DNA from: Duganella sp. OV510
GTDB taxonomy: Bacteria > Pseudomonadota > Gammaproteobacteria > Burkholderiales > Burkholderiaceae_D
NCBI RefSeq assembly: GCF_900100205.1
Contig: NZ_FNEQ01000001.1
Location: 620,001 to 684,000 of the forward strand
Reading direction: 5' to 3'
DNA length: 64,000 nt
In this document: piece after piece, positions 19,602 through 44,887 of the stretch
Layout of the letters: each line of letters starts with the position of its first letter
How positions within the stretch are numbered: position 1 is the stretch's first letter
The notes under the pieces: model-generated
Databases searched by the model: none
The model's input: the letters and a program-made list of their open reading frames with translations, nothing else
What the model was told of the DNA's origin: nothing
Made by a program: the position numbers and the translations under genes

Positions 19602-20639
19602 ATGACGACAGCAGACGCAATCATCGCTTTGGAACTGGGCCACTACCGGCTGCGCGAGCAGATCGGTGGTTCGGCCTACGGCATCATCTGGCGCGCTAGC
19701 GGGCCACAGGCCACGCGTGACGTGGCCGTCAAGTTGATCAACCAGGAGCAGATGGACCGCGCCCTGCCCGCGCAGCGTGAGCGCTGGACTAGCAGTGCAC
19801 ACAACGAGATCGCTTTTCTGCAATCGCTGGAACCCTGGGATGAACGGCACATCGTGCGGCTGATGGACAGCGGCTGGCACGATGGCCTGCCCGTACTGGC
19901 GCTGGAGCTGATGGGCTCCGACCTGGGCAAGCACATGATCGCCCTCAAGGGTCGCGGCGAAAGCCTGCCACTGACGCGGGCGCTGAACTGGATCGCGCAG
20001 ATCAATCAGGCACTCGCCAAGGTGCATCAATATGGCTGGCGTTACCTGGATCTGAAACCCGCGAATGTGCTGCTCGATCCGCATCTGCACACCGTCAAGC
20101 TGGCCGATTTCGGCACCAACCGCGAACTGGGCAGCTTGCAGGCACACTCGTATGCCGGCACCGCCAACTGGCAGGCGCCGGAACAGTTCTTTCCCACCAA
20201 CCTGGGCGGCTACGCCACCAGTGCGCGCAGCGATTACTTCTCGCTGGGCGCCATGCTGTATTTCCTGGTCACCGGCGGCATGCCGCTGCGCTTCTGCGCG
20301 GACTGCGGGCTGGCGTATCGCGAACATCACGTGGCTGGCGCCGACCTTCTGCGCAGCAGGAACGGCGGCGAGATCCCTTCAGCCCTGCAACTGGATGAGG
20401 AGGAGCGTTTTGCGGCCGCCATTGCACAGGACAAGCGCGATGCCGCATTGGATCTGCTGCGCGCGCTGCTGCATATCGATCCAGCGCAGCGGCCACGCCA
20501 TGCGATCCAGATCAGCCGCATGCTGAACGCGATACAAGGTGTGAAGCCGGCGCGTGGCGAATTTGATGCGGTGGATCCTGTACTGGGTATGCATCGGCCT
20601 TCCGCCATCAATGGCTGGCAAACCATGCGGGCGGCATGA
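19602..20639 (+). CDS. Ser/Thr protein kinase (non-RD)
   Basis: A 345-residue soluble eukaryote-like kinase. Glycine loop IGGSAYGIIW, ATP-binding Lys44 (VAVKL), catalytic loop WRYLDLKPANVLL with Asp150, DFG at Asp169 (LADFGTNRE), and an activation loop ending in WQAPEQF. The catalytic Asp follows Leu instead of Arg, so it is a non-RD kinase and may not need activation-loop phosphorylation. It has no membrane anchor or sensor domain. GGGGGAAATC precedes the ATG. It overlaps the SEDS gene by 4 nt and begins a block that also encodes a PP2C phosphatase and FHA proteins, so it is the presumed writer of that circuit. Confidence 0.93.
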   Translation: MTTADAIIALELGHYRLREQIGGSAYGIIWRASGPQATRDVAVKLINQEQMDRALPAQRERWTSSAHNEIAFLQSLEPWDERHIVRLMDSGWHDGLPVLALELMGSDLGKHMIALKGRGESLPLTRALNWIAQINQALAKVHQYGWRYLDLKPANVLLDPHLHTVKLADFGTNRELGSLQAHSYAGTANWQAPEQFFPTNLGGYATSARSDYFSLGAMLYFLVTGGMPLRFCADCGLAYREHHVAGADLLRSRNGGEIPSALQLDEEERFAAAIAQDKRDAALDLLRALLHIDPAQRPRHAIQISRMLNAIQGVKPARGEFDAVDPVLGMHRPSAINGWQTMRAA

Positions 20640-23167
20640 TGGCCGCCACCAGCTCGCGCGCGGCCTCGCGCAATGCGCCGCATCGCCTGGTGCTGCGTCC
20701 ATCGATCGTCGAACGCCTGGCTGGCCTGCTGGCCGTCGGCGCGACGCGTTGCCTTGGCGCCGTCCTTCACGCCGCCCGGCGCAATCTGCCGCTGGCACTG
20801 ACGCTGGCCTCACTGGCGGCCCTGTGCGGATTGCAGGGACTGGCCTTGCTGCGCGCGCCTGCGGCCTGGCTTCCTTCCGCCATTACCATTGATCTAGCCG
20901 CAGGCAACAGTATCATACTGGGCCAGCGTGAACTCGCTGCGCCGCAAACGGATCGCCATCATCTGTCGTTACGCCGCGATGCCAACGGCAGCTGGCTGCT
21001 GCGCAATCTCAGCGCGTCCGGACAAGTAGTGTTGATTCGCGAGTCGGGCGACCAGCGCCTGGGAAGCGCGGCCCTGCAAGGACTTCAGCGCTTCCAGATC
21101 GACGGCGCGGTGTTCGATGTACACGCCGCCAGCGATCGGGAAGTCAGCTTTACGCGTGACGGCCAAGAGTGGCGCTACGACGGCGCCGTGCTATACCGCA
21201 ATGGCCGCCAGCAGCCGGGCTGTCCGGAATCGCGGCTGTCAACCAGAGTGCTTGCGGTCTGGAACCGCATCATGCCGCTGCCGCTGACCATCGCCCGTCC
21301 CTTGAGCTTTGGCGGCAACCTGTATTGTGACAATCGGCTTGGCCTGGCGCAGGTGGCGCCTGGCGCGGCGCAGATCGCGCGTGTGAATGGCAGCCTTCAG
21401 CTTTCAGGCGGCAATCCGGATGGTGATCGCGCCGCCGTGCTGGTATCCAGCCACGCGGGACAGCAGGACTTGCGCACGCAAGAAGCCTCGCTCGCCGGCG
21501 TGACTGCCATCGCGGTTGGCCGCACACGTTTCCATCTGAACGCCAGCGAGGATCAACTGGTATTGCAGCCCAGCCGTCACGTCAAGCTGTTCAGCGAACC
21601 GGAACTCAAGCTGCCATCGCAGGTCAGCTGGCAATGGCAACAACGCTCGCTGTGGAGCGGTGCCCACGCGGACGCCATCTGGATAGGTCTCGCCATCTGC
21701 GCGGCCGCCATGACCATTAGCGCTATCGCCAGAGCCAGCGCCGGAACCGCAGGGCGACGCAGCGACGCTCTTGCACGCCGCGCCACCTCGACGCAAGCCG
21801 ATCGGTCGGGTGGCCGCACCGCCTGGGCCTGCGCGCTGCTGGCGACTGTCAGCATGCTGCTGGTCGGCCTGGTTGCGCTGATCTCGCAGCGCGCTGGCGA
21901 CCCGCCGAGTGCTGCATGCTCGCTGCTACTAGGCGCCAGCGCATTGCTGATGTGGCTCGCCCTGCCCGGCCGGCTGACGCTGGCCACCGCCGCCGGCGCC
22001 ATCCTGCTCGCCGCCGGCCTGTTGGCACAACTGGAACTCGGCCTCGCCGCGCCGGAATCGTCCTGGCTGCGCTTCTACCAGAAGAGCGCAGCGATGCTGG
22101 CGATCGGCGCCGGCCTTGGCGGCCTGCTGCGCTTGTGGGCACAACACCAGGCTGCACGCGGCACCCATCTGGCACAACGCAACATTGAGTGGATACTGGC
22201 GCTGTTCGCAGCCATCGCCCTGGCAGCACTGGCAGCCCAGGTGCTATGGGGCGACGAAACCGGCGTCTTCGACCTGCAGCCTGTCGAATTGGCCAAACTC
22301 GCGCTGACCGCCCTCACCGCCCATTGCCTGGCACTGCGCTTCAACTGGCACAACGGCCCGCAACGCCTGGCTGACCACAGCGCCCGCTGGCTGCAATTGA
22401 TCGCTCCCGCGCTGCTGTTCCTGGCACTGCTCGGCCTCGCCCTGGTACAGGTGGACGACTTCTCGCCCCTGATCCTGCTGCTGGTGTGGAGCACCGGCAT
22501 AGGGCTGGCGTACGCCCTCGCCGCCGGCAACCGCATGCTGGCCGTGCTGATTGCCGCTTCCGCGCTGCTAGCGGTCGCCACCATCGCCTACCTGCGCCTG
22601 GCCGGCACCGATGACCTGATCCGCTGGGGCTTTTACGCCGACCGCTTCCTGGTCTGGCTGAATCCAGCCGAACACCCGCACACCGGCCAGCAACTGCTGC
22701 TGGGCGCGCGCGCTGTCGGTGAAGGCGGCTGGTTCGGCACCGATCACTGGCTTGGCCTGCGCACGCTCGGCCAAGCCGCCGGTAACGTGGTCAACATCCC
22801 CGCTGTGCAGGACGACTTTGCCGCCTCATTCTTCCTCAACCGTCACGGCCTGCTGGGCGGCCTGCTGCTCTGGACCGTGCAAGCAGCCTTCCTCACCGGG
22901 ATCGTGCTGGCGGCCCTGCACGCCTACCGCGCGGGTACGCAAGCCCGCAATTTCCGTCACGCCTGGCTGGGACGCTTCCGCTACTTCGCGTTAAGTGGCG
23001 GCGCCGCCTTTGTATTCGCCCACTTCCTGCTGTCCTGGGGCACCAATCTGGCGATCTTCCCCATCATGGGCCAGCCGATGAGTTTTCTCTCGGCTGGCGG
23101 CAGCCATCTGCTGTTTTTCCTCTGCCCCCTGCTTACCTTCGTTGCGATATCTACTGAAGGAGTCTGA
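20636..23167 (+). CDS. SEDS (FtsW/RodA) protein with extra FHA-like domains
   Basis: At 843 residues this is about twice the usual SEDS length. One membrane helix (about 51-72) is followed by some 270 residues containing two FHA-like segments (about 80-165 and 215-315; for example TDRHHLSLRR then GSWLLRNLSASG). The SEDS membrane core begins near 345. Core landmarks: QPVELAKL (from Q548), RFLVWLNPAEHPHTGQQ, IPAVQDDFAASFF with Asp727 at the catalytic position, and FPIMGQPMSFLSAGGSHLL. SEDS proteins polymerise peptidoglycan from lipid II with a class B PBP partner. With the N-terminus inside, the FHA-like part would face the periplasm. It is coupled to the kinase gene by ATGA. Confidence 0.88.
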   Translation: MMAATSSRAASRNAPHRLVLRPSIVERLAGLLAVGATRCLGAVLHAARRNLPLALTLASLAALCGLQGLALLRAPAAWLPSAITIDLAAGNSIILGQRELAAPQTDRHHLSLRRDANGSWLLRNLSASGQVVLIRESGDQRLGSAALQGLQRFQIDGAVFDVHAASDREVSFTRDGQEWRYDGAVLYRNGRQQPGCPESRLSTRVLAVWNRIMPLPLTIARPLSFGGNLYCDNRLGLAQVAPGAAQIARVNGSLQLSGGNPDGDRAAVLVSSHAGQQDLRTQEASLAGVTAIAVGRTRFHLNASEDQLVLQPSRHVKLFSEPELKLPSQVSWQWQQRSLWSGAHADAIWIGLAICAAAMTISAIARASAGTAGRRSDALARRATSTQADRSGGRTAWACALLATVSMLLVGLVALISQRAGDPPSAACSLLLGASALLMWLALPGRLTLATAAGAILLAAGLLAQLELGLAAPESSWLRFYQKSAAMLAIGAGLGGLLRLWAQHQAARGTHLAQRNIEWILALFAAIALAALAAQVLWGDETGVFDLQPVELAKLALTALTAHCLALRFNWHNGPQRLADHSARWLQLIAPALLFLALLGLALVQVDDFSPLILLLVWSTGIGLAYALAAGNRMLAVLIAASALLAVATIAYLRLAGTDDLIRWGFYADRFLVWLNPAEHPHTGQQLLLGARAVGEGGWFGTDHWLGLRTLGQAAGNVVNIPAVQDDFAASFFLNRHGLLGGLLLWTVQAAFLTGIVLAALHAYRAGTQARNFRHAWLGRFRYFALSGGAAFVFAHFLLSWGTNLAIFPIMGQPMSFLSAGGSHLLFFLCPLLTFVAISTEGV

Positions 23168-23170
23168 ATC

Positions 23171-24694
23171 ATGCCGACCTATGTTCAACACGCCGTCCTG
23201 GGACGCATTCCGGACGTATTCAACGCCGAGGCGATCTGGCAGGCGCCTGGCCTGTCGCTTTTCTCGCGCCGCCCGCTGCTGCGCGACCTGCTGGAGCGCA
23301 GCCCGCGCGAACACAAGGGCCGCGCCGCCACCCGCTGCTTCTCGCACGTGACGCTGATGCTGCCGCAGGAAGAAGTCGATGACGACTACCACCTGACCCG
23401 TGGCGCCCGCGCACGCGACCTGGCGCAAACGCTGACGGCTTTGCATCAAAAGGATTTCGGCGATCTGCTCGGCAGCGACCAGGTGCGCTATGACGTGATG
23501 GGGACGGAGGCGCTGGCGCCGGGCGAGATCGAAGTCAAGTTCGGCCACGCCGTTTACTTGCCGGCGCCAGACGAAAAAATCCTGTACAACGTGAACGTGT
23601 CGCGCGACAGCGCCATCTGGCATCCGGTATGCGCCATCTATCCCAACCAGCGCCTGGCGCTGATCGGCGGTGAAGGCGGCGAAGCCAGCGCGGTTGCGCA
23701 GGGCTGGCCATTCGGCCCGGACGCCGCGCTGCTGATCCTCAACGATGGTCCCGATGCGCCGCCAGTGGTGCAGATGCGTCCCAAGGATGCCTTCGACTGC
23801 CGCTACGATCCGCGCAGCGGCTATTACACCGTCAAGTCACTGCGTGAACCGCAAGGCGGCCAGCGACTGCTGGTCAAGATCGCCCGCGCCTCCGCACTTC
23901 CGGCGCGCGCGTCAGCACCAACAGCGCCGTCCAGCAAGCCAGCCGTCTGGCAAAGCCGCACCGGGGCCGCACCGATCGACCTGACCGCCGTTCCCGCCGC
24001 CGCCAGCCACAAGCCGGTCAACCGCGCCGGCGAAAGCGACGCCACCTATGCACCGGTATCGCAACAGCGCGTGTCGCTGGTTGCCCTGGCCTTGCCGCGC
24101 CTGAGCCGCTACCGCGACACTGGCGCACAGGCGCTGGAACTGTCGTTTGATAGCACGCTGTCGCTGTCTGCCGCCGCGCAACCAGCGCTCACGCTGGCTG
24201 TCGACAGCGCCGACAACCTGTACGCCTGCACGCCCGAAGGCCGCCAACCCATCGAAGCGCCCGCCACCTTTGCACCGGTTGACGCACGAACCTTGCGCCT
24301 GCTGGCAGCCGCGCCGGAAATGGCGGATCGCTACCGTGCCATGATCTGTCTCGCCCAGCCAATCAGCGCCGGCGTGGCCTGCGGTGTGCGCTTCACCTTC
24401 GGACGCAACTCGCCGATGCTGGCGGCACTGCGCCTGCTGGATTCCCCTCGCTTCATCAAGCGCACCGACGGCGCCATCAGCGCCAGCGCCGACCGCATAG
24501 GCCTGTCGCGCACCGCCTTCAGCTTTGAAGCAGTCAGCAAGGGCTATACCATCGCCCGGCAGAGTCCTACGCAGGCGCTGTACCACCTGGACGACAAGCT
24601 GCAATTCGTCGCCGCTATCGGCGATGCGCCTTACCTGCTGCCTCACGGCCATCACCTGGTGGCGGGCCACTACGTGCTGCGTTTCGAGGCCTGA
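23171..24694 (+). CDS. Protein with possible FHA-like domains, function unknown
   Basis: A 507-residue soluble protein starting 4 nt after the SEDS stop. I do not recognise the N-terminal half. The last 120 residues read like a degenerate FHA domain: FTFGRNSPMLAALRLLD, then DRIGLSRTAFSFEAVSKGY, ending in GHHLVAGHYVLRFEA. A second weaker stretch at about 150-235 (YPNQRLALIGG ... RSGYYTVKS) has similar strand spacing. The middle is Ala/Pro/Ser-rich and looks like a linker. FHA domains bind phosphothreonine, so a reader role next to the kinase is reasonable but unproven. Confidence 0.65.
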   Translation: MPTYVQHAVLGRIPDVFNAEAIWQAPGLSLFSRRPLLRDLLERSPREHKGRAATRCFSHVTLMLPQEEVDDDYHLTRGARARDLAQTLTALHQKDFGDLLGSDQVRYDVMGTEALAPGEIEVKFGHAVYLPAPDEKILYNVNVSRDSAIWHPVCAIYPNQRLALIGGEGGEASAVAQGWPFGPDAALLILNDGPDAPPVVQMRPKDAFDCRYDPRSGYYTVKSLREPQGGQRLLVKIARASALPARASAPTAPSSKPAVWQSRTGAAPIDLTAVPAAASHKPVNRAGESDATYAPVSQQRVSLVALALPRLSRYRDTGAQALELSFDSTLSLSAAAQPALTLAVDSADNLYACTPEGRQPIEAPATFAPVDARTLRLLAAAPEMADRYRAMICLAQPISAGVACGVRFTFGRNSPMLAALRLLDSPRFIKRTDGAISASADRIGLSRTAFSFEAVSKGYTIARQSPTQALYHLDDKLQFVAAIGDAPYLLPHGHHLVAGHYVLRFEA

Positions 24695-24700
24695 GTCACC

Positions 24701-25180
24701 ATGGACGCCGTCAAACTCCATGCCGTTGCCGCCTTCGCGGCGGGCCTGATCGTCACGCTGTTCCTGGCCGCCTATCTGACGCCGCGCCACTGGTGGCGAC
24801 GTCCGAACATGCGCGCGCTATTCATCATGGTGGCCGGCGCATGGGGCTTCGGCAGCCTGATACTGTACGCCACGCACGGCGCCAGTGCGGTGGCGGCCGA
24901 ACCGCAGCACGCGGAGGCGCCACCACGGGCGCTAGCCGCCGTACCGGCAACCGCCGATGTCACGCCCATCGCGGGCAAACCTTTCCGCGTGCACCGCGAT
25001 TTGAACCTGCGCTCATCCCCCGGCGTGGACGCCGCCCGCATCGGCGTGGTGCCCGCCGGCGCCGAAGTGACGCCGACCGGCGCGCGCGATGGCGACTGGT
25101 GGCAAATCAAAGCTGCCGTTGACGGCAGCGCCAGCACCGGCTGGGTCAGCAGCCTGTGGCTGCGCCGGAGTGGCGAATGA
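24701..25180 (+). CDS. Membrane-anchored bacterial SH3 protein
   Basis: A 159-residue protein with two hydrophobic segments (about 9-27 and 40-58), an Ala-rich linker and a C-terminal SH3_3-type domain (about 93-155: FRVHRDLNLRSSPGVDAARIG, partly quoted, then DGDWWQIK and GWVSSLWL). Bacterial SH3 domains commonly bind peptidoglycan peptides or wall ligands. With two helices, both ends should lie on the same face; a periplasmic SH3 would need one segment to act differently. It lies between the FHA-like gene and the phosphatase and overlaps the latter by ATGA, so it is probably part of the same module. Confidence 0.8.
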   Translation: MDAVKLHAVAAFAAGLIVTLFLAAYLTPRHWWRRPNMRALFIMVAGAWGFGSLILYATHGASAVAAEPQHAEAPPRALAAVPATADVTPIAGKPFRVHRDLNLRSSPGVDAARIGVVPAGAEVTPTGARDGDWWQIKAAVDGSASTGWVSSLWLRRSGE

Positions 25181-26256
25181 CCCACACACCGCCCACCGCC
25201 GCCGCCAGTTTTTCAGCTAAGCTGTGGCCTTTCGCATCCCGCGCTGCGGCGCCCGCACCGATGACACGCATCACCGACCAACTCCACTTCGGCCCCACGC
25301 TGGACATCGCCGCCCGCAGCGCCGCCAGCATCAGCAAGCTGCAGGTGCCGGAAAATCAGGACAACCTGCTGATCATTGACGCTGACGGCAGCGCGATTCT
25401 GCTGCACGAGCAAACCCCGCAAACCACCAAAGTGCCAGGCTGGCCATCGGGCCACGTCCGCCTGGCGGTACTGGACGGCATGGGCGGCCATGGTCACGGA
25501 CGCCAGGCCGCCGAAGCCGTCGCCACCGGCCTGCTACACATTCCGGCCTGCCACTCGCTGGAAGAACTCAGCACGCACCTCGACCAGTTGCACCAGAAAC
25601 TACAGGCCCGCTTCAGCCGTCCCGACGATCACGACACCTTCCGCCGTCCCGGCACCACGCTCACCTTGCTGGAGATCGCCCCCGGCCGCGCGCCGATGCT
25701 GTACCACGTTGGCGACTCGCGCCTGTACGAGATCACACCGCAAGCCGCCACGCCGCTGACCGTCGATCACGTCCCCGCCACCGCGTTCGCCATGCATGGC
25801 CTGCTCGGCGAAGATGAGTGGCGGCAGCAGGTGCACGGCGAACATCGCGCGCAAATCTCCCAGGCCTACATCCTTGGCAACGCCTTCGCCAATCCGCAAA
25901 TGCTGGACGATGGTCTGCTGCCGCTGGACGCCGGTAACCTGCCACCCTTCCTGCACCAGCTGGCCGACCGTCGCACGCTGACCCTGCGCCCAGGCGCCAG
26001 CTATCTGCTGGCCACCGACGGTTTTTGGTCCTGCGCCCGCCCGCAGCCGTGGATCAGCCGCTGGCCAGCGCTGTTGGCGCAGCCGTCGGCAGGCCAGGCG
26101 CTGGATGCGCTGTTCAGGGACTACGCGGAGAACCCGCCGCCGCAGCTGCACATCGACAATCTGAGCGCCATCGTCCTCCGCTTTGAACCAGCCCAAAACA
26201 GTGGCAATGTTGACGAAACAGCACTACCGACAGCACCAATTCCGTCGCATTTTTGA
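25177..26256 (+). CDS. PP2C-family Ser/Thr protein phosphatase
   Basis: The start at 25177 makes an ATGA overlap with the SH3 gene; an upstream in-frame ATG at 25156 is less likely. The 359-residue product carries the metal-binding motifs of PPM phosphatases: VLDGMGGHGHG (Asp100), GTTLTLLEI, HVGDSRLY (Asp180), LLATDGFW (Asp281) and DNLSAIVLRF (Asp327). All canonical metal-binding Asp positions appear to be kept, so it should be active with Mn/Mg. It is soluble. As the only phosphatase in the cluster it is the presumed eraser opposing the two kinases. Confidence 0.92.
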   Translation: MTHTPPTAAASFSAKLWPFASRAAAPAPMTRITDQLHFGPTLDIAARSAASISKLQVPENQDNLLIIDADGSAILLHEQTPQTTKVPGWPSGHVRLAVLDGMGGHGHGRQAAEAVATGLLHIPACHSLEELSTHLDQLHQKLQARFSRPDDHDTFRRPGTTLTLLEIAPGRAPMLYHVGDSRLYEITPQAATPLTVDHVPATAFAMHGLLGEDEWRQQVHGEHRAQISQAYILGNAFANPQMLDDGLLPLDAGNLPPFLHQLADRRTLTLRPGASYLLATDGFWSCARPQPWISRWPALLAQPSAGQALDALFRDYAENPPPQLHIDNLSAIVLRFEPAQNSGNVDETALPTAPIPSHF

Positions 26257-26350: not shown

Positions 26351-27877
26351 ATGAATAAATGCAGTAATGCCCAGCACCCGCATTGCACCTTCTGGGTCTT
26401 GTCCGGAGCGCAAACTTGCGAAGGCGGCCACGCCCAAGCAGAGCCCTCCAGCTTCGACCTGCTGAACGCATTGCGCACAACCCGTGCCGCCTCGCCGGCC
26501 ACGGTGCTGGATGCCGTACCTGCCACCGAACCTTCCCAGAATTACGCTCGTCCTCACCAGCGCGCCCAGACAGCGCGCCCGCAACTGCACATCAGCGGCT
26601 TTGATCCGCGCGCAGCCGGCGGCCGCCAGACGCTGAAGATGGAACTGCGCGGCATGCCGGACGCCTGCGCACCGCAACTGACGCTGCAACTGCAATCGGA
26701 CCTGATCCCCAACAGCGCCGCGCGCCAGCACTTCGTGCGTGCGGTCAGCGGCGAGTGGCGCCCGGTGTTCGTCGAGTTTTCCTCGCGCGGCAAGGAGCAT
26801 GGCCAGTACCAGATCAGCATCGAGCTGCTTAGCCAGCATCCCGGCATGGCGGCGCGCAAGTGGGTGTGCACCTTCGTCATCCTGGTGCCGCGCCTGGACG
26901 CCACGCTGACCGAAATCCACCGCATCTTCCTCAGCACGCACAAAAACGTGCGCGTGATGGCGGATGACGCTTCCATCGCCCGCGTCAGCGCGCAAGGCGG
27001 CGACAGCCTGGATATCGATGTCACCGCACGCAACGCCGGCATCGCCCACCTGGACCTGAACGCGCCAGCTGGCAAAGTGGACCTGGGCTTCTCGACCATC
27101 GCCTGGGACGAGGACCTGATCGAAATCGACATGCCGCAAGCGGCAGCCTTACACCCGCACGCCAGCCGTGCCGCGTCGCTGGTCAACGCGGCGCCGGAAG
27201 CCGGCGCACAGCGCCAGATCCGGCTGTTTGCGATAGAAGACTGCGTGATCGGCCGCTTTGAACTGATCGATCCGGAATCGGACGTGATGCTGACCCACTA
27301 CACGGCGGACGGCCAGGATACCAATGGCCTGACGCGCCGCCTGTCGGGCAGACACGCCATCATCCGCCGTTCCGGCCTGGGATTTGAAATTGAAGATGTA
27401 TCGCGCTACGGCATCCTGCTGGATGGCGTCTGGCCGGGCAAACACAAGCCGACCGCGCTGCGCCTTGGCATGCGGATTGAATTCAGCGCCAGCATCAAGG
27501 GCATCGTCACCTTGTCGGTGTCGGCCATCATGCCGCACGGCGTGATCCTGCATCGCATCGACCACGGCGCCAATGCCGAATGTTTCTACCTGCTGGCGCC
27601 GGAAACGCATCCGGGTTATCCGGTCAAATCGTTTGCCGCCGCACCGCATGCGGCCGCGCTACCGCTGATGTTCCACCGCGATGGCGGCTTCTGGCACCTG
27701 GACCAGCTGACCGGCAAGGAAACCGCCCTGGCGCCATCCGCCTCGCTGGATAAACTGAGCCGCGTGCCGCGTCACACCCGCTTCGCCAGCGATCCGTATC
27801 CGGAACACTGGATCATCCGCACCAACGGCAACGACATGTACAGCACGGTGGCGGCGAACGCCATGTCCACCGCCTGA
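26351..27877 (+). CDS. FHA-domain protein with N-terminal Cys/His cluster
   Basis: A 508-residue soluble protein. The N-terminus carries a Cys/His set (MNKCSNAQHPHC then TCEGGH) that looks like a small zinc-binding knuckle. Residues about 85-275 are beta-rich and unassigned. An FHA domain follows at about 290-395, with LSGRHAIIRR (Ser332, His335), FEIEDVSRYGILLDG and a final strand IKGIVTLSVSA; the phosphothreonine-binding residues are in place. The C-terminal 110 residues are unassigned. It is probably the main phospho-reader of the cluster and may recruit phosphorylated partners such as the kinases, SEDS or PBP proteins. Confidence 0.85.
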   Translation: MNKCSNAQHPHCTFWVLSGAQTCEGGHAQAEPSSFDLLNALRTTRAASPATVLDAVPATEPSQNYARPHQRAQTARPQLHISGFDPRAAGGRQTLKMELRGMPDACAPQLTLQLQSDLIPNSAARQHFVRAVSGEWRPVFVEFSSRGKEHGQYQISIELLSQHPGMAARKWVCTFVILVPRLDATLTEIHRIFLSTHKNVRVMADDASIARVSAQGGDSLDIDVTARNAGIAHLDLNAPAGKVDLGFSTIAWDEDLIEIDMPQAAALHPHASRAASLVNAAPEAGAQRQIRLFAIEDCVIGRFELIDPESDVMLTHYTADGQDTNGLTRRLSGRHAIIRRSGLGFEIEDVSRYGILLDGVWPGKHKPTALRLGMRIEFSASIKGIVTLSVSAIMPHGVILHRIDHGANAECFYLLAPETHPGYPVKSFAAAPHAAALPLMFHRDGGFWHLDQLTGKETALAPSASLDKLSRVPRHTRFASDPYPEHWIIRTNGNDMYSTVAANAMSTA

Positions 27878-32559: not shown

Positions 32560-34851
32560 TCATGCGAGCTTGCGAGCGACTCTAAAGCCGACGATGTCGT
32601 TGGCCAGCACGGCGGAAAAGCCGTTCCTTACAGCCGATCGCAGGTAGCGCGGGTTGTACAGCCACGAGCCGCCGCGCAACACCCGCCGTACCGGATCGCC
32701 ACCCTGCTCCCACGCGCTGCCATCCGCCGGTGCGCCGGTATAATTATCGTGCACCACGTCCTGCGTCCATTCCCACACGTTGCCGTGCATATCGAACAAG
32801 CCCCAGGGATTCGGCTGAAAAGCGCCAACCTTGCTGGTGCCTTGCAGATAGGCGCCACGCGGGCCGCCGTTGTAGGTGTAATGGCCATCGTAGTTGGCCT
32901 GCTCGGTGCTGATCGTATCGCCGAAACTGAAAGCGGTCTTGGTGCCGGCGCGGCAGGCATACTCCCATTCCGCTTCAGTCGGCAGGCGATATAGCTGTCC
33001 GGTCCTGTCGGACAGCCAGCGCAGATACTGCTGCGCGTCCATCCAGCTGACGCCGACCACCGGATGCTCGTCCGTCTGCGCGTAGCCAGGCGCGCGCCAG
33101 TCGGTGTCGGACTGCGACTCCCAGCCGGTATCTTTGACAAAGCGCCGCCACTGGCCCACGGTTACCGGAAAACGGCCCATGGCAAAGGAGTACTCGATGC
33201 CGACCCAATGCGGCGGCTGCTCGCGGTCCAGCCAGTTCTTTTGCGCGCCCGCCTTGATGGCCAAGGCCTGTTCATGCTCCTGGGAGCCCATCTGGAAGCG
33301 TCCGGTCGGTATCAGCACCAGGTCAGGGCCAGCGCCGCTGCCATCAAGGAAGCGGTCGCGCAGCACACCATTGGCGTCGGCCACCGGCGTGTTGGCCGTC
33401 AATGCTGCCAATTCCGCCGCATGACGTTCCGCCTGCTGCTTGCGATGCCGCTCCTGCTCCTGGCGATAGGCAGCTTCCGCCTTCAGCTGCGCCGCCTTGC
33501 GCTGCTGCTCTTCACGCTCGTCGCGCGCCTGCTTGGCATCGGCGTCGCGGCGCGCCTGCAACTGCTCGCGCAGCACTTGCTTGCGGGCTTGCGCGGCAGC
33601 CTCCGCTTCGGCGCGCTGCTTCGCTTCAAGCGCGCGCCGCTGCTGCTCCTGCTTTTGCTTGTCGACGGCCGCCGCCTGCATCTCGGCCTGCCGGCGCGCT
33701 GCCAGTTCAGCCACCATCGCCTTGCGCTTTTCTTCCGTCTGGCGTGCCTGCTCCGCTTGCGCCGCCTGCTCGTTCCTGCGCTGCTGCTCGCGCTCCGCCT
33801 GTTCGCGCGCTGCCTGCTCGGCCTGCGCTGCCAGTTCCGCTTCGCTCGGACCGGCAGCACGGCGCAACTCCGCCAGCAGCTCATTGACCGATGCCGGACG
33901 ACGCTCCTGCAAATAAGCGAAACCTTCTTGCAGTACCTTCCACTGCCGTTCATTCAGGCCGCGCGGTGGCGACGGATGAAAATCGGCCGGCCGCATATCG
34001 TCGAAAGGCATGCGGCCTTCCAGCAATTGATAGATCATGACCGCCACCGCATACACGTCCAGCTTTGGCGCGGGCTGACGTTGATGGGTGCCTGCTTCCG
34101 GCGCGCGGTAGCCGGCGGTGCCAGCATTCGGCGTTTGCAGGCCAAGGCTGCTGCCGGCACTGCGCGCACGCGAAGCGATGCCGAAGTCCAGCAGCTTCAC
34201 TTCGCCGCGCTGGGTCAGAAATACATTGCCGGGCTTGATGTCGCGGTGTACCAGCTTGTGCTTGTCCCATGCGTACTGCAGCGCTTCGCCGATCGGCGAC
34301 AGCAGCTTGTACACCGATTCCAGCGACAGCGTGCCCTGCTCCGCAAGATAGGCATCCAAATCCTGCCCTTCCAGATACTCCATGATGATGAAGTAGCTGG
34401 AGGTGGCCGGGTCCTGCGCCCACTCATAGACGCGGACGATATGTTCATGCGCCAGTTTGCGCGCCTGCGTGGCTTCTTCGATCAGCAGCTTGGCATGGGT
34501 GGCGCTTTGCGTCAGCTGCGGCGGCAGGATTTTCAGTGCCACCAGTTCGCTGTGCCCCAGCTCCGCGTGCGTGGCCAGGTCGGTCGCCAGCCACACCTGT
34601 CCCATGCCGCCCATGCCAATCAGGCGCTCCAGCCGGTAACGGCGGTTTTGCGGGCCGATTTCCTGGCCGGTCATCAGGCCCAGCTCCGTGCCCTGCCGCT
34701 GCGGCAGTTGCGCAGGTGCGGCCAGGCCTCCTGGTGGCGCGTACTCCGCATCCAGGATGGCGTTCTTGCGACGGTCGAACTCTTGGAGACTCAACAAACC
34801 GTCATCATGTAAGGCCCGCAGTTCGCGGATCTTGTCTCTTGCTGTTTGCAT
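32560..34851 (-). CDS. SHOCT-Ser/Thr kinase-coiled coil-FGE-like fusion
   Basis: The start at 34851 (MQTARDKIREL) is preferred over 34896. The 763-residue chain has a SHOCT-like N-terminus (IRELRALHDDGLLSLQEFDR), a kinase domain at about 68-330 with IGMGGMGQVW, ALKIL, HRDIKPGNV (Asp204), LDFGIAS (Asp222) and GYRAPE, a long Ala/Glu/Gln/Arg coiled coil (about 340-500), and an FGE-sulfatase fold at about 510-763 (VLIPTGRFQMGS, LPTEAEWEYACRAG, MHGNVWEWTQD, LRGGSWLYNPRYLRSAVR). The FGE catalytic Cys pair is absent, so this end is probably a binding module. It is the RD-type counterpart of the 19.6-kb kinase and the last gene of the minus-strand block. Confidence 0.93.
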   Translation of the reverse strand: MQTARDKIRELRALHDDGLLSLQEFDRRKNAILDAEYAPPGGLAAPAQLPQRQGTELGLMTGQEIGPQNRRYRLERLIGMGGMGQVWLATDLATHAELGHSELVALKILPPQLTQSATHAKLLIEEATQARKLAHEHIVRVYEWAQDPATSSYFIIMEYLEGQDLDAYLAEQGTLSLESVYKLLSPIGEALQYAWDKHKLVHRDIKPGNVFLTQRGEVKLLDFGIASRARSAGSSLGLQTPNAGTAGYRAPEAGTHQRQPAPKLDVYAVAVMIYQLLEGRMPFDDMRPADFHPSPPRGLNERQWKVLQEGFAYLQERRPASVNELLAELRRAAGPSEAELAAQAEQAAREQAEREQQRRNEQAAQAEQARQTEEKRKAMVAELAARRQAEMQAAAVDKQKQEQQRRALEAKQRAEAEAAAQARKQVLREQLQARRDADAKQARDEREEQQRKAAQLKAEAAYRQEQERHRKQQAERHAAELAALTANTPVADANGVLRDRFLDGSGAGPDLVLIPTGRFQMGSQEHEQALAIKAGAQKNWLDREQPPHWVGIEYSFAMGRFPVTVGQWRRFVKDTGWESQSDTDWRAPGYAQTDEHPVVGVSWMDAQQYLRWLSDRTGQLYRLPTEAEWEYACRAGTKTAFSFGDTISTEQANYDGHYTYNGGPRGAYLQGTSKVGAFQPNPWGLFDMHGNVWEWTQDVVHDNYTGAPADGSAWEQGGDPVRRVLRGGSWLYNPRYLRSAVRNGFSAVLANDIVGFRVARKLA

Positions 34852-34865
34852 CTTTACCCGATAAG

Positions 34866-37052
34866 TTACTGCAGCGGTGCGCCGCATTCGGCACAAAACT
34901 TGTCATGCTCCCGACCTGGCGGCACCGGGTGGCCGTTGGCGCAGCGATGCTGCACCACCACTGTCGCCGGCGCTGCCGCCTTGGCCACGTTAATCAGGTC
35001 AACCTGATGGCGCCTGTCTTTATCCAGCTCCGCATCGCGGTGCGCACGCTCTTCGAGCACGCGCTCATACGCCATGCGTGCGGCCTCCACCGGCGTGACG
35101 CCCTGCTCGGCCGCCACCACCTGCGACAATGCCTGTATCTGTTCAGCAGTCATGCCCCCCTGGATTTGCAGCTTCATGATCTGCGCCACCGCTTCCACAT
35201 TGGACGGCGCGGCCACGGCAGCAATCGCCATGTCACTCATGCGGTTCATGGTTTCCATGCGGCGGATTTCGTGATCCTGCTGCGACTGCTGGTTGGTGAA
35301 AGCGGCCGCGCGTTCCTGTTCGAATTTTCGCAGCTCGTGCTGCCATGCGGCTTCCTGCTCGCGCTGTTTCAGCACCAGGCGCTGTTCGTCGATCGCCAAT
35401 TGGTCCAGCATGGCCTGCTTGGCGTTGGCCTGAGTCTGGCGCGCGTGCATGCCATCCGCCTCGATGGTGCGCAGCAGCTTTTCATACTGTGCTACCGCAT
35501 CGGCTTGCGCGCCGGTGCGCTTGAGATCCTCAATCTTCTGATTGATCTCCGCCACCTGCACCGCGTTCGTGGCGTCCTTGACCGCATCGCCGCGCAGCAG
35601 TTCGCGCTGCCGGGCCAGTGCCAGCTGATCTTCCCACTCCTGCACACGCTCAGCTTCACGGCGGCGCGCAGCATTCGCTATCGTCATGCCCTGGATGCGG
35701 GCGGCGTGGGCTTCCGACTCGATTTGCAACTCGCGCGCCTTTTCGTCCTTCTCGCGCTGGCGCAGCGCAGCCAGTTCGGCGCGCTTGTGCGATTCGTCTT
35801 CGATCAACAAGGCCTGCGCGATCTGGTTTTCGATCGCCTGCTGGCGCAGCTGATGCGACAGGCGTTGCTGTGCGATCTGGCGCTGCTCGGCGGCGGTCTG
35901 CTGTAGCACTTCCAGCTCTGTGCGCATGCGGATCTGGGCCAATTGGCGCACATGATCCCAATCGGCCTGCTCGCCCTGGCGGTGCGATTTATTCTTCGAA
36001 AGCTCGTGTTCCAGGTCTGCCAGCACGGTGCCAGCACCTTTGTCGATGGCGACCTTGCGAGTCTTGGAATCCATCACGCGGCTGTACAGCTCCACTTCGC
36101 GCGCGCGCAAGGCTTGCACACGCTCAGCTTCTTTCAGCGTCAGCTCGGCCTTGTTGACACTGGCGTCCTGGCGCAGCTCCGCGCGGCGGAAGTCCGAATG
36201 CATCTTCTGCTCGTCGCGGGCGATGGCCTGCCATTCCTCGTCGCTATAAATCTGGTCCAGCTGTTTGGTATGTTCCAGCTGCACGTGGCGCTCATCGGCC
36301 ACCAGCCACAAGGAGCCGATGCGCGCGCGGTTATGGTCAAATTTATCGTGGCGCAGCGCGACGGTGTCCACACCGTCAACCGCCAGCCCGTAGGTGGCCA
36401 GGCGCAGCTTGAGGGCTGCTTGCAGGCGTTCGTTCAGTTGCAGCCGCAGATCGCCATTGCCAGCCATTTCGCGGATCGAGCGGCTGCCGACAAATTCGGC
36501 GACCAACTGGCGCACCGATGGTTGCAGCAGTTCGTGCAGATGCGCGGTGTTGACCACACCCGGCACCGTCATGAAGTGCTGCGCAAAAGCCGGTACGCTT
36601 TCGATACGGATGGCAACCGTGAAGCTGGCCGAAACTTTCAGATGCTCCGCCGTGTGCAGGTCGTCGAACGCGAATTCCACCGGCAGCGGCAAGGTGCGGG
36701 TGATGAGGATTTCGGCGTTCTGGTTACGCAGCAGGTGATTCAGACGGGTGAAGAATCCTTCGATTTCGTATTCACCCTGCGGCACTTCAGTGGCCTTGTC
36801 GGCTTGCAGGATGTAGGCGCGCGTGGTTGCCGGCACGCGCAAGGTCTTGGTGAAGATGCCGGACAGCGTGCTGACGCCGAAGTAAACGGCCAGCTCATTA
36901 TCGCCGGGGATCCAGCGGTTGTCGCGCAATACCGGTTCGCTGCGCGGCGCGCCCAGCGTCAGGCCGCAGTGCTTGCAATAGCCCGACTGGTCGCCGTTTT
37001 TGTGCTCGCACCGCGGGCATTTGACGCCGCCAAAACCAAACATTTGGAACAT
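34866..37052 (-). CDS. Zinc ribbon-SPFH-coiled coil-zinc ribbon protein
   Basis: A 728-residue protein. Residues about 11-32 form a zinc ribbon (KCPRCEHKNGDQSGYCKHCG). An SPFH/Band-7-like domain follows at about 45-235 (for example TKTLRVPATTRAYILQ, then LNERLQAALKLRLATYGLAV). Roughly 270-600 is continuous charged coiled coil. The C-terminus is a second ribbon (HRCANGHPVPPGREHD with FCAECG). It has no transmembrane segment, so it may be a cytoplasmic oligomeric scaffold. AGGAG precedes the ATG. It lies 14 bp before the kinase-FGE start, which suggests a functional pair. Confidence 0.85.
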   Translation of the reverse strand: MFQMFGFGGVKCPRCEHKNGDQSGYCKHCGLTLGAPRSEPVLRDNRWIPGDNELAVYFGVSTLSGIFTKTLRVPATTRAYILQADKATEVPQGEYEIEGFFTRLNHLLRNQNAEILITRTLPLPVEFAFDDLHTAEHLKVSASFTVAIRIESVPAFAQHFMTVPGVVNTAHLHELLQPSVRQLVAEFVGSRSIREMAGNGDLRLQLNERLQAALKLRLATYGLAVDGVDTVALRHDKFDHNRARIGSLWLVADERHVQLEHTKQLDQIYSDEEWQAIARDEQKMHSDFRRAELRQDASVNKAELTLKEAERVQALRAREVELYSRVMDSKTRKVAIDKGAGTVLADLEHELSKNKSHRQGEQADWDHVRQLAQIRMRTELEVLQQTAAEQRQIAQQRLSHQLRQQAIENQIAQALLIEDESHKRAELAALRQREKDEKARELQIESEAHAARIQGMTIANAARRREAERVQEWEDQLALARQRELLRGDAVKDATNAVQVAEINQKIEDLKRTGAQADAVAQYEKLLRTIEADGMHARQTQANAKQAMLDQLAIDEQRLVLKQREQEAAWQHELRKFEQERAAAFTNQQSQQDHEIRRMETMNRMSDMAIAAVAAPSNVEAVAQIMKLQIQGGMTAEQIQALSQVVAAEQGVTPVEAARMAYERVLEERAHRDAELDKDRRHQVDLINVAKAAAPATVVVQHRCANGHPVPPGREHDKFCAECGAPLQ

Positions 37053-37140: not shown

Positions 37141-38151
37141 TTAAATCATGCCAATCTTGTCGATACAGGCCAGCGTCGCGCCTTTTTGGCGCAATCCGGC
37201 CGCGAATCCGGGCGGCAGGCAGTCCTGCCAGTCCTTTGGCAGCAGCACGCGATCGCCATGATTTACTTGATTGAATATCAATTCCAGCTTCGATTCGCGG
37301 CCATCCACGGTGTCGACCCGGCCAGCATGCCATGCGCTGGAGCAGCCGGTGGCGATGATACGGCCGCGCGGTACGAATTCCCGCCCCCGCGCCAGGCGAT
37401 CGGCCATCACCAGTGCCAGCTGGTAGGAGCCACCCTGAAAGCGTGGCTGGCCGAAGCGGACCACAGTGCGCCAGCGCCCCAGGGCCTTGCCATCGAAGTG
37501 GCGCGCGGCGTTCAACGTCTGTTTGACTTCCTGCTGTGCGGTCAGTTCCAGGCCAGGCGCGGTGATGCTGTCTTCCTCGCTGCGCGCTGCCGCTTCAAGC
37601 GGAAAGACGCTGACTTCGAGCCAGCCTAGGGTATCGTTGATGCCACCGCTGTGCAGCGGGAACCAGGTGCGCACCGTGGAGACAGCGGCCGACATGTCGG
37701 CGTGGCCGATCAGCGCGCCAAGATGCGTGATGCGCACCGCATCAACTGGTGCTGCGCCCTCGCCTACCTGCACGGTGCCGTCGACGCGGCCAAGATGCCA
37801 GGCGTCGGAACTGCCTTGTGCGATGGTTGGCTGGATTGGCTGAAGGCCGCGCACCATGCGGTCCGCCAGTACGGCGGCCAGTTCCCAGTCGCGTTCATCG
37901 GCGGCTGGGGCGATGTCCATGCTTAGCATCACCTGGTCACGGCTGTCGAACCGCGCTTCGGTGTGGCGCGCGAGGCGGACGACTTGCTGCATGCGTTCGG
38001 CAATCGATGGAGCGTTTGGCGCCGTGCATTTGACGTCGGCGCGATTGGCGCGTGGACGCCGGCTGGCGGTGATGGTGAGTATGCGGCCATCGGCCAGCAC
38101 GCTGCGGCATTCGGCGTTGGCTGGCACGGCGCTGACTGAGATGGTGGTCAT
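37141..38151 (-). CDS. Protein with two Lon-protease-like units
   Basis: The start at 38151 overlaps the preceding gene by ATGA. The 336-residue product has an internal duplication: SSDAWHLGRVD and SSAWHAGRVD mark equivalent points, each preceded by LADRM or MADRL. The second unit resembles a Lon (S16) protease domain: FQGGSYQLALVMADRLARG, RGRIIATG, GRVDTVDGRESKLEL and GDRVLLPKD. Ser242 and Lys288 fall where the Lon Ser-Lys dyad would be, 46 residues apart (43 in E. coli Lon). The first unit lacks both. No ATPase domain is present. Activity is only an inference. Confidence 0.6.
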   Translation of the reverse strand: MTTISVSAVPANAECRSVLADGRILTITASRRPRANRADVKCTAPNAPSIAERMQQVVRLARHTEARFDSRDQVMLSMDIAPAADERDWELAAVLADRMVRGLQPIQPTIAQGSSDAWHLGRVDGTVQVGEGAAPVDAVRITHLGALIGHADMSAAVSTVRTWFPLHSGGINDTLGWLEVSVFPLEAAARSEEDSITAPGLELTAQQEVKQTLNAARHFDGKALGRWRTVVRFGQPRFQGGSYQLALVMADRLARGREFVPRGRIIATGCSSAWHAGRVDTVDGRESKLELIFNQVNHGDRVLLPKDWQDCLPPGFAAGLRQKGATLACIDKIGMI

Positions 38152-39248
38152 AGCGATGGCTCCGTGCGCGGGACGTAGGTGGTGCGGCGCAATGACAAGC
38201 CGGTTTCCAGGTTGGTGCAGATGCGGTCCGCTTCTTCCAGCAGCAACAGCCACTGTTCCGGGCTTGCCAGTTGAAGGCGGGCAAGCAGCGGCCAGGCTTC
38301 GTCAAGCGCGGTTTGGGCGATTTGCGTTTGCGCGCTGCGCAGGGTTTGGTCAGCTGCTGGCAGTGGCTGGTCTGGCGCGGCCCAGGCCAGAGATGGCATG
38401 GTATTGACGTTCAGTGCCGCCATGCCGAGGCGCAGCAGCACGGACTGCTGTTGCTGGAAAATGTCCAGGCCTTCAGGCAGCGCAAGCAGGCGTAGTTCGC
38501 GGCTCAAGGCCGGCAGTTCGAGGAACAGGCGGCGTAAGGCGCGCGCATCCTGCTCGGCCACGCTCATCTGCCCCACAGGCAGGCAGGTGGCGAGGCCGGT
38601 CGGCGTGGCGACGGGACTCGCTGCAGTGCCGGCGGTGTCGGCCGGGATGGCCGCGCGTTCGGCTTCGGCGGCTTGAGCGGCTCGGGCCTGGAGGACTGTG
38701 GCGTAGTCGATTTCATCGCCCAAGTCCACTGGCACGCAATCGTCTACCGTCACGCCATAGCGCATGTACATCAGCTGATTCAGGCCGGCGCGGAAGGCAT
38801 GCCATTCGTCGAGCGACGTGCACGGCGGCAGATCAAGTGCGCCCTGGGCCAGTTCCGCTTGCAGCGCCATCTGGGCCGCCACCGCAAAGTCTGGCAGCTC
38901 CAGCCTTCCCGCCGTTTCGCTGTAGAGATATAAATCAAACCGTTGTTGCGACACGCGCGGATTTGCCGCGTCCACGACAAACCGCAGCCGCAGGCCCCAT
39001 TCTGGCGCCGCCGCAAACGGCACCAGGTCCACCGTGTAAGGACCTGGATGAAAACAGAACGCCATCTCGCCCTGCTCGCACGAGACTTTGCCCACCGCCG
39101 CGCGCCGCGCATGGCCTGCCGCGTTGAATATCACCACCGCACTCTGCGCGGGCGCAAGGTCGCCATCATCGAGCCGCAGCGCGATCAGGGTGGCGCCCAA
39201 GCCGTTGGTGTCAGTGGCTTGTTTGCGGCGGCGGCTGAATAATCTCAT
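38148..39248 (-). CDS. Unknown protein, possibly SPFH-like N-terminus
   Basis: A 366-residue soluble protein. The N-terminal half (GLRLRFVVDAANPRVSQQRF, with ALQAELAQGALDL and LNQLMYMRYGVTVDDCVPV) has the strand-then-helix pattern seen at the end of SPFH domains, including the YGV turn, and may be a diverged relative of the 728-residue neighbour. A helical C-terminal half follows an Ala-rich linker. I cannot assign a function. It lies 3 bp downstream of the 197-residue gene and overlaps the Lon-like gene, so translation is coupled. Confidence 0.65.
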   Translation of the reverse strand: MRLFSRRRKQATDTNGLGATLIALRLDDGDLAPAQSAVVIFNAAGHARRAAVGKVSCEQGEMAFCFHPGPYTVDLVPFAAAPEWGLRLRFVVDAANPRVSQQRFDLYLYSETAGRLELPDFAVAAQMALQAELAQGALDLPPCTSLDEWHAFRAGLNQLMYMRYGVTVDDCVPVDLGDEIDYATVLQARAAQAAEAERAAIPADTAGTAASPVATPTGLATCLPVGQMSVAEQDARALRRLFLELPALSRELRLLALPEGLDIFQQQQSVLLRLGMAALNVNTMPSLAWAAPDQPLPAADQTLRSAQTQIAQTALDEAWPLLARLQLASPEQWLLLLEEADRICTNLETGLSLRRTTYVPRTEPSL

Positions 39249-39251
39249 CGT

Positions 39252-39845
39252 CTACGGCGCCACCGGCTCGACGGCAAAGCCGGCTCCATACAGTTGAAAA
39301 TGCGATCCGGGCGCGGTGGCGAACGGCCAAACACGCTCGCATTCGCCGTCCGCGTCCAGCCGGCCTTGCAGCACAATGGCGCCGCCGCCGTCGATCACGC
39401 GCAACTGCGGCTGTTCGCGCAGTACGCGCTCGGCAAACGGCGCTTCGGTGGACAGGCTGAGAATCACCTGCCAACCGCCATCCTGCGGCAGGAAGTTCAG
39501 CGTCCAATAACCATCATCAGTGACCAGGGCCTCCAGCGCCTCGGCGGTGGAGGCGGCGCGCAGCATACCGCTGCTGCCCGTCCATACCGGATCGTTGGCG
39601 GCCCGTGGCTGAGCGGCCGCGTGGCGCTCCAATGAGAGCTGCCGGAAGCGACGCAACGTCAGCGGCGATGCCGACAAGGCCTGGCGCTCGTTTGGCGTCA
39701 GCGCGCGCGTGCCGTCCAGCGCTGCCGACAGCGTGGCGTCGGCCAGCATCAGGCGGTCTCCCGGTACGGGACGCGACAGCAACAGGCGCTCGCGCAGCCG
39801 TGCATCCAGATCATCATGTGGCAAGTTCAAATTATTCTCCTTCAT
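39252..39845 (-). CDS. Unknown 197-residue protein
   Basis: A soluble acidic protein. Its N-terminal third (LNLPHDDLDARLRERLL, ALTPNERQALSASPLTLRRF) looks helical, with a short segment like anti-sigma or zf-type N-termini but without Cys. The C-terminal part (DGGWQVILSLSTE, LQGRLDADGECERVWPF) is beta-rich. No family recognised. It overlaps the 437-residue gene upstream by 4 nt. That gene's C-terminus looks like a DNA-binding helix pair, so a regulator/anti-regulator pairing is one possibility among others. Confidence 0.6.
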   Translation of the reverse strand: MKENNLNLPHDDLDARLRERLLLSRPVPGDRLMLADATLSAALDGTRALTPNERQALSASPLTLRRFRQLSLERHAAAQPRAANDPVWTGSSGMLRAASTAEALEALVTDDGYWTLNFLPQDGGWQVILSLSTEAPFAERVLREQPQLRVIDGGGAIVLQGRLDADGECERVWPFATAPGSHFQLYGAGFAVEPVAP

Positions 39846-41152: not shown

Positions 41153-41233
41153 AAAGTCCTGTATAAAAAATGAAGTCAAAAGGCTTTTCAAGCATGCCAC
41201 AAAAAACAGGTTCGCATTATCCCGTTTACAAGG

Positions 41234-44707: not shown

Positions 44708-44887
44708 ATACCCCTCGCTATTGGTTTGCACTCTTTAGCCGGGGGACGGGGAAAACCGCCCTCCCATCGCGCCAGAATGCATTTCGGTCCGCAGAAAACG
44801 CATCCCGTCGCAATCCCCGCGCAGCTTGCGTCGCCTTTGGTTACAGTGACTACATCGAAACTCAATCACCAAGCAAAGGAGCACAAA

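Follow-up and report, generated by a model that had tools for sequence, protein, structure and literature searches.

SEDS (shape, elongation, division and sporulation) proteins paired with class B penicillin-binding proteins (bPBPs) are known from RodA-PBP2 and FtsW-FtsI, and forkhead-associated (FHA) folds are known as well. In actinobacteria, one cluster has the gene order fhaA-fhaB-pstP-rodA-pbpA-pknA-pknB. The actinobacterial kinases PknA and PknB are described in an operon with RodA and PbpA, plus two FHA genes (PMC3989709). FHA-type domains are also found in the YscD, PrgH and CdsD proteins of type III secretion, and that of PrgH was concluded to be unlikely to bind phosphothreonine (PMC3635987). 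Here we describe a locus in a stretch of 64,000 nucleotides of Duganella sp. OV510 (assembly GCF_900100205.1, contig NZ_FNEQ01000001.1, positions 620,001 to 684,000 of the forward strand; hereafter the window, whose numbering is used throughout). It encodes a divergent SEDS protein, P0001, with a large FHA-type domain (the head) that is predicted to lie in the periplasm. Among the matches listed in the open-licence PubMed Central (PMC) literature, none describes a SEDS protein that combines a tandem FHA-type head in the periplasm with a signalling locus of its own, and neither a SEDS protein with any FHA-type domain nor this cluster is described there.

The reading that we favour, with moderate confidence, is that Duganella, Massilia and their relatives have a third, separately regulated peptidoglycan synthase of the SEDS-bPBP type, whose SEDS member carries a periplasmic FHA-fold head for docking or regulation. 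The locus resembles RodA-PBP2 and FtsW-FtsI in its SEDS core, with an Asp in extracellular loop 4 (ECL4) and a Q-P-x-E motif, and in its candidate partner, a PBP2-like transpeptidase. It differs from them in the predicted periplasmic FHA-type head, in two extra helices, in changed residues of ECL2, ECL3 and ECL5, and in the size of the candidate PBP, which has 1165 residues with a long N-terminal region. As in the actinobacterial pkn/rodA/pbpA cluster, genes for a kinase, a PP2C phosphatase, FHA proteins, a SEDS protein and a bPBP occur together; unlike that cluster, this one belongs to a Gram-negative host, has an FHA-type domain fused to the SEDS protein and presumably outside the membrane, and keeps the PBP gene in a separate, facing operon. 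With the YscD/PrgH/CdsD domains the head shares an FHA-type fold and poor conservation of the phosphothreonine ligands, CdsD being its best structural match (tied with others), whereas those domains are cytoplasmic and belong to the secretion ring and the head would be a periplasmic, apparently intertwined tandem on a wall polymerase. The features of the SEDS gene are as follows.

20636..23167, + strand: divergent SEDS protein P0001, 843 residues (TM1, predicted periplasmic FHA-type domain, TM2, two extra helices, 10-helix SEDS core)
20786..20851, + strand: first transmembrane helix (TM1), residues 51-72 (model helix 4-25, hydropathy)
20852..21664, + strand: predicted periplasmic domain (head), residues 73-343 (alignment, model, structural matches, hydropathy)
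20867..21130, + strand: FHA-like repeat 1, residues 78-165 (Pfam hits in the family, repeat alignment, model)
21221..21223, + strand: Cys196, presumed disulfide with Cys231 (invariant, 74/74)
21269..21553, + strand: FHA-like repeat 2, residues 212-306 (repeat alignment, model)
21326..21328, + strand: Cys231 (invariant, 74/74)
21665..21748, + strand: second transmembrane helix (TM2), residues 344-371 (model, hydropathy)
21827..21964, + strand: two extra membrane helices, with centres at residues 408 and 434 (hydropathy)
21977..23149, + strand: SEDS core of 10 helices (alignment to RodA and FtsW of the same genome)
22814..22816, + strand: Asp727 in ECL4, counterpart of the putative catalytic Asp in FtsW (alignment)

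A preliminary description, made from the letters of the window, had placed a SEDS open reading frame at 20636-23167, and the frame is real: it is intact, runs over 843 codons from an ATG start and shares 4 bases with the end of the upstream kinase gene. PF01098 (FTSW_RODA_SPOVE) was the sole Pfam domain of the full-length protein at E<=1; the match covers residues 542-832 and scores 68.7 bits, where the cut-off is 26.4. The whole genome gave three matches to this family, at 329.5, 324.4 and, for P0001, 70.3 bits; P0001 is the third SEDS protein of its genome. It fell short of the NCBIfam equivalog cut-offs of both RodA (64.8 against 336.7 bits) and FtsW (59.1 against 337.5 bits), and by this measure it would be an ortholog of neither.

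Membrane topology was analyzed by hydropathy averaged over 57 aligned rows, which showed 18 peaks that were merged to 14 hydrophobic segments. In P0001 these lie at residues ~63, 356, 408 and 434, followed by ten core ones (~457 to ~834), which gives a layout of 2+2 helices before the 10-helix SEDS core with its large ECL4. The loop between the first two segments (~63 and ~356) comprises 274 residues, in agreement with the roughly 270 residues previously described between the first helix and the core, although a second helix and two more were found to precede the core. Alignment with the genome's own RodA and FtsW puts the Q-P-x-E loop, ECL4 and ECL5 outside. The presumed cytoplasmic parts are net positive, with K/R:D/E counts of 8:1 at the N-terminus and then 7:2, 2:1, 2:1 and 4:0, and little or no positive excess is seen in the main presumed outer loops (2:2, 0:4, 6:8 and 0:0, with 28:24 in the large domain). 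With its N-terminus inside, P0001 would thus expose residues 73-343 to the periplasm. The two invariant cysteines of the head recur as a pair in matching context in the distant genomes G280, G502 and G1138, and a C196-C231 disulfide would suit such a placement. Collectively, helix parity, loop charge and the Cys pair make the periplasmic location of the head, as originally suggested, well supported.

The proposal of an FHA-like insertion had hinged on its being kept by homologues and on its predicted fold, and both were examined. All 23 rows of one alignment and all 74 of a larger one retain the insertion, as do G280, G502 and G1138. An AlphaFold2 model of the head region, built from the 74-row alignment, reached a mean predicted local distance difference test score (pLDDT) of 93.6 and a predicted template modelling score (pTM) of 0.83. 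When this model was aligned by VIA-align with 994 PDB chains preselected by Foldseek, 43 of the first 44 rows were FHA-domain chains; 30 of them carry FHA in the title, 13 (EmbR, Rad53, TIFA and others) we take to be FHA proteins, and one row, 9qks_H, was unclassified. The best row, 3gqs_A (CT664 of Chlamydia; CdsD), was tied with others (Z 7.7, 2.1 Å, 84 aligned), the FHA domain of FhaA (3oun_A) followed at Z 7.3, and unrelated folds started at Z 4.2. At the level of the family, Pfam FHA matched 12/74 members at E<=1 (best E 2.2e-4), and Yop-YscD_cpl, an FHA-type domain and the commonest Pfam hit, matched 18/74 (best E 1e-4). PF00498 on the segment of the window protein itself gave 12.6 bits (E 0.2), under the cut-off of 20.7; full-length P0001 showed no FHA match in Pfam at E<=1, and a profile search of the PDB with the periplasmic domain returned nothing at E<=10. 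The assignment of an FHA fold to the head therefore draws on its family and its model.

Sub-profiles of residues 76-170 and 205-322 were aligned to each other by hhalign over 88 columns (E 8.4e-5, probability 60%), and the same pair with one member reversed gave E 0.27. The top VIA matches, of about 85 residues, extend across model residues ~32 to ~258, i.e. both repeats, and a linear Foldseek alignment of the head to 3gqs_B covered 85 columns at a root-mean-square deviation of 7.1 Å. Because the VIA matches span both repeats, the FHA units appear intertwined: strands may be exchanged between the repeats, one FHA unit being built from pieces of both. Mutual information (effective 61 sequences) gave no decision on this exchange. 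Of the two FHA-like domains described at first, what stands are two repeats that align with each other and FHA/YscD-type Pfam hits in the family; the structural match, in contrast, is one FHA unit across both.

The residues with which an FHA domain would bind phosphothreonine are not found as a set in the head. In repeat 1, Gly96 is kept in 67/74 rows, while the Arg of the G-R motif at position 97 is present in 29/74 and is Gln in the window protein, so that the reported loss of the canonical Arg is correct for P0001 but not for the family as a whole. The Ser of the S-x-x-H motif occurs in 1/74 rows (mostly Asp), and His109 in 53/74. Repeat 2 has G-G where G-R would be expected, mostly followed by Asn (65/74), and an N-G motif was present in 0/74 rows of the head. 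The FHA protein encoded at 26351-27877 keeps G301-R302, S332 and H335 in 30/30 rows. Since its ligand residues are largely gone, the head is unlikely to read phosphothreonine, and it may bind something else.

We also compared the SEDS core with FtsW. Residue numbers of E. coli FtsW were transferred via the genome's own FtsW, on which the E. coli positions were located by motifs. The Q548-P-x-E551 motif of SEDS proteins and D727 are both kept in 57/57 rows, and Q548, G821 and G822 match FtsW Q147, G380 and G381. D727 aligns with D297 of E. coli FtsW, the putative catalytic Asp of that protein, in which further residues are needed as well (PMC8765783). Peptidoglycan glycosyltransferase activity is plausible for P0001.

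The candidate partner is the first gene of an operon that faces the SEDS operon on the other strand.

41234..44731, - strand: candidate cognate class B PBP-like transpeptidase, 1165 residues, first gene of the facing operon (PF00905)
39842..41200, - strand: protein of 452 residues, family unknown (gene linkage)
39252..39845, - strand: protein of 197 residues, family unknown (gene linkage)
38148..39248, - strand: protein of 366 residues, family unknown (gene linkage)
37141..38253, - strand: protein of 370 residues, family unknown (gene linkage)
34866..37052, - strand: zinc-ribbon protein of 728 residues (domain search, linkage)
32560..34896, - strand: Ser/Thr kinase with a fused FGE-sulfatase-type domain, encoded at the end of the facing operon (PF00069 and PF03781)

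In the PBP, the transpeptidase domain PF00905 scored 55.2 bits against a cut-off of 22.1 and was the only Pfam match at E<=0.1, with no GT51 domain. The closest NCBIfam model was that of PBP2/MrdA (pbp2_mrdA, E 5.5e-15, below the cut-off of the model), and a weak match to PBP_1a_fam was seen at residues 727-791 (E 0.0087). The catalytic motifs STFK (with Ser833), SxN and KTGT are kept in 22/22 rows from 20 genomes, and a hydrophobic stretch at residues 120-140 qualifies as an N-terminal membrane anchor. By motifs, domains and anchor, the product is predicted to be a class B PBP. Its long N-terminal region matched no Pfam family, and a search of the PDB with the protein gave nothing at E<=0.001. 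An Ala-Thr repeat of 29 residues (44486-44572, - strand) precedes the membrane helix. The proteins of 370, 366, 197 and 452 residues (37141-41200, - strand) gave no significant Pfam or NCBIfam family, and their genes are conserved between the PBP and zinc-ribbon genes in five family genomes. The two operons face each other in 5/5 family genomes examined (G144, G070, G052, G139 and G113).

With P0001 as query, 24/145 genomes of the family matched at E<=1e-10, as did 5/300 genomes of the order, one of them (G280) in another family. The genomes bearing the PBP were identical in both sets: the same 24/145 in the family and the same 5/300 in the order, four of which are also among the family 24. 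Two congeners, G040 and G067, lack both proteins. SEDS and PBP genes lie on one contig in 18/24 genomes, always convergent and 14.5-28.5 kb apart, and on different contigs in the other 6. In G280, a PBP homologue, 36% identical over nearly its full length, adjoins the SEDS operon and is divergent from the kinase gene; matches were obtained there for the PP2C, 507-residue, SEDS, kinase, PBP, zinc-ribbon and SH3 proteins and the FGE part, and the other five proteins of the two operons were not matched. In the distant G1138, a PBP gene (profile E 1.8e-29) is found immediately 5' of the SEDS gene; the first gene of that operon matched the profile of the 507-residue protein only at E 0.053 and is not claimed to be of that type.

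Searches with the head profile found it in 3/369 genomes of the class, namely the window's own, G502 (E 5.7e-45) and, weakly, G594 (5.1e-6), and in 4/398 of the phylum, namely its own, G018, G1138 (1.7e-7) and, weakly, G1065 (9.2e-5). The matches in G502 and G1138 are SEDS proteins bearing the head domain. A scan of a genome collection yielded 207 relatives of P0001, and the best 80 were kept as loci; these are titled Duganella, Massilia, Rugamonas, Pseudoduganella, Janthinobacterium, Herbaspirillum or Oxalobacteraceae, with one titled only Pseudomonadota. The genes that accompany the SEDS gene were counted over these 80 loci, up to 10 kb on each side, where some misses are contig ends.

19602..20639, + strand: Ser/Thr kinase, first operon gene (PF00069; 80/80 loci)
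23171..24694, + strand: presumed cytosolic protein of 507 residues, FHA-type folds at residues ~130-243 and ~297-507 (model; 79/80 loci)
24701..25180, + strand: small membrane protein with a C-terminal SH3_3 domain, probably periplasmic as read from the sequence (Pfam, alignment; 77/80 loci)
25156..26256, + strand: PP2C-type phosphatase (PF13672; 72/80 loci)
26351..27877, + strand: FHA protein, FHA at residues 299-378, presumed cytosolic, with an N-terminal Cys/His cluster (PF00498; 74/80 loci)

The SEDS gene itself is present in 80/80 loci. The actinobacterial cluster has a PASTA-type receptor kinase and FhaA_N. The operon kinase here matches solely the kinase-domain parts of Pfam and NCBIfam models, and FhaA_N, first suspected at the N-terminus of the 507-residue protein, is not claimed, as no such Pfam match appeared in 31 members of that family. 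The PADLOC hits of the two kinases are ordinary kinase-domain matches and give no evidence of defence. The model of the 507-residue protein, weaker than that of the head (pLDDT 72.7), matched 3gqs_B over residues 297-507 (Z 9.3, 2.1 Å, 95 aligned) and MxiG at residues 130-243 (Z 8.1); a profile of this protein found nothing in the PDB at E<=10, and hhalign detected no similarity between it and the head (probability 2.4% or less). In the FHA protein, C4, H9, C12, C23 and H27 of the N-terminus (26351-26431, + strand) are invariant in 30 rows and possibly form a zinc site. Some Massilia loci have extra genes between the SH3 and PP2C genes (L054 15813-17057, L069 17017-18273 and L094 18759-20087), one of which resembles an MFS transporter by eye. 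Near the SEDS operon of G280 there is an FGE domain with a caspase-type domain, and a lytic transglycosylase (SLT with LysM; L131 6482-8014, - strand) lies directly beside the 507-residue and SEDS genes. The locus of G502 (L134 9082-13195) is a reduced version, in which the other four operon proteins were not recognised within the 20 kb examined.

In the mechanism that we propose, P0001 would be the polymerase half of a dedicated third SEDS-bPBP pair that has a kinase, a PP2C phosphatase and FHA proteins of its own to control it from inside. The head, a permanent periplasmic structure of two intertwined FHA-fold units that would have lost phosphothreonine reading, would most likely be a module for docking and allostery that works independently of phosphate; it would touch the partner PBP on its very long periplasmic part, and perhaps also the SH3 protein. 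Its role for this pair would be like that of MreC, the periplasmic activator that has been proposed for RodA-PBP2 (PMC10257715). A more specific version, which we advance only tentatively, is that FHA-type domains were moved outside the cytoplasm as a strand-exchanged, ligand-less pair within a polymerase; cytosolic FHA proteins, two kinases and a phosphatase would handle the phospho-signal inside, and the head would couple SEDS to PBP outside. In that version the locus would encode an extracytoplasmic FHA module and a signal-gated wall synthase, neither of which is described among the literature matches listed.

Several results weigh against this reading. The best reversed control of the repeat comparison, in which repeat 1 was aligned with the middle piece in reverse, gave E 6.2e-4 and a probability of 28% over 29 columns, and for that reason the repeat-to-repeat alignment by itself lends modest support. 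The VIA Z scores of the head stay below 8, where a common arrangement is possible, and Foldseek alone found no row in the PDB at E<=0.001, the best FHA row having E 0.12. The N-terminal region of the PBP showed no similarity by hhalign to the FHA regions beyond one match of 23 columns at E 1.9e-4, the best reversed control alongside it having E 0.0066. P0001 is without counterparts of FtsW W138, P196, G199, R243 and Y379, so that its activity or substrate may differ. G502 encodes the SEDS protein and a 507-residue-type protein, yet lacks a PBP of this family, the best match there having E 5.6e-4 and covering 74 residues. Moreover, the co-occurrence of SEDS and PBP is confined mostly to four genera of one family, plus G280, and such a concentration implies few independent events.

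In one alternative, the head does not dock the PBP but senses a ligand, be it a muropeptide, lipid II, a polysaccharide or a secreted peptide, and thereby turns the SEDS protein on or off. The well-supported periplasmic location would agree with this, as would the probable periplasmic SH3_3 protein of the same operon and the fact that G502 keeps the head without this PBP. FHA folds, however, mainly bind proteins, and none of the results indicates a small-molecule site, although no search for one was made on the model; we regard a sensor as rather unlikely. Similarly improbable, in our judgement, is a SEDS core that no longer polymerises peptidoglycan, serving instead as a regulatory pseudo-enzyme or having another undecaprenyl-linked glycan as its substrate. 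The five changed FtsW-equivalent residues and the scores far under both equivalog cut-offs would be in line with it, but D727 is invariant, Q548-P-x-E551 is kept, the partner PBP retains its catalytic motifs in all rows, and G280 has the LysM lytic transglycosylase beside the operon.

We also considered that SEDS and PBP are linked by neighbourhood only and form no complex, the FHA-SEDS protein acting alone or with another bPBP. The distance between the two operons in the family (~15-28 kb) and the lack of the PBP in G502 speak for such an arrangement; the identical presence sets in 145 and 300 genomes, and the position of the PBP gene, next to the operon in G280 and immediately ahead of the SEDS gene in G1138, speak against it, and we consider it somewhat less probable still. 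Finally, an inverted or otherwise unusual topology, with a cytoplasmic head that reads the phosphothreonine produced by the adjacent kinase, is very improbable: the kinase gene that precedes the SEDS gene in the operon, the phosphatase gene that lies downstream of it, the Arg in 29/74 and the His in 53/74 rows would favour it, but helix parity, loop charges, the Cys pair, the near absence of the Ser and N-G ligands and the presence of two other FHA-type proteins, presumed cytosolic, in the cluster speak against it.

We therefore retain the third SEDS-bPBP synthase as the preferred reading. If the topology holds, the head is an FHA-type fold outside the cytoplasm, a location which to our knowledge is rare. 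SEDS-bPBP pairs belong to the core machinery of wall polymerisation and serve as drug targets, and the route by which signals reach them is an open question. A SEDS protein with a built-in head, encoded beside kinase, phosphatase and FHA genes in a Gram-negative lineage, would allow the control of wall synthesis by signals to be tested directly, with RodA and FtsW left intact.

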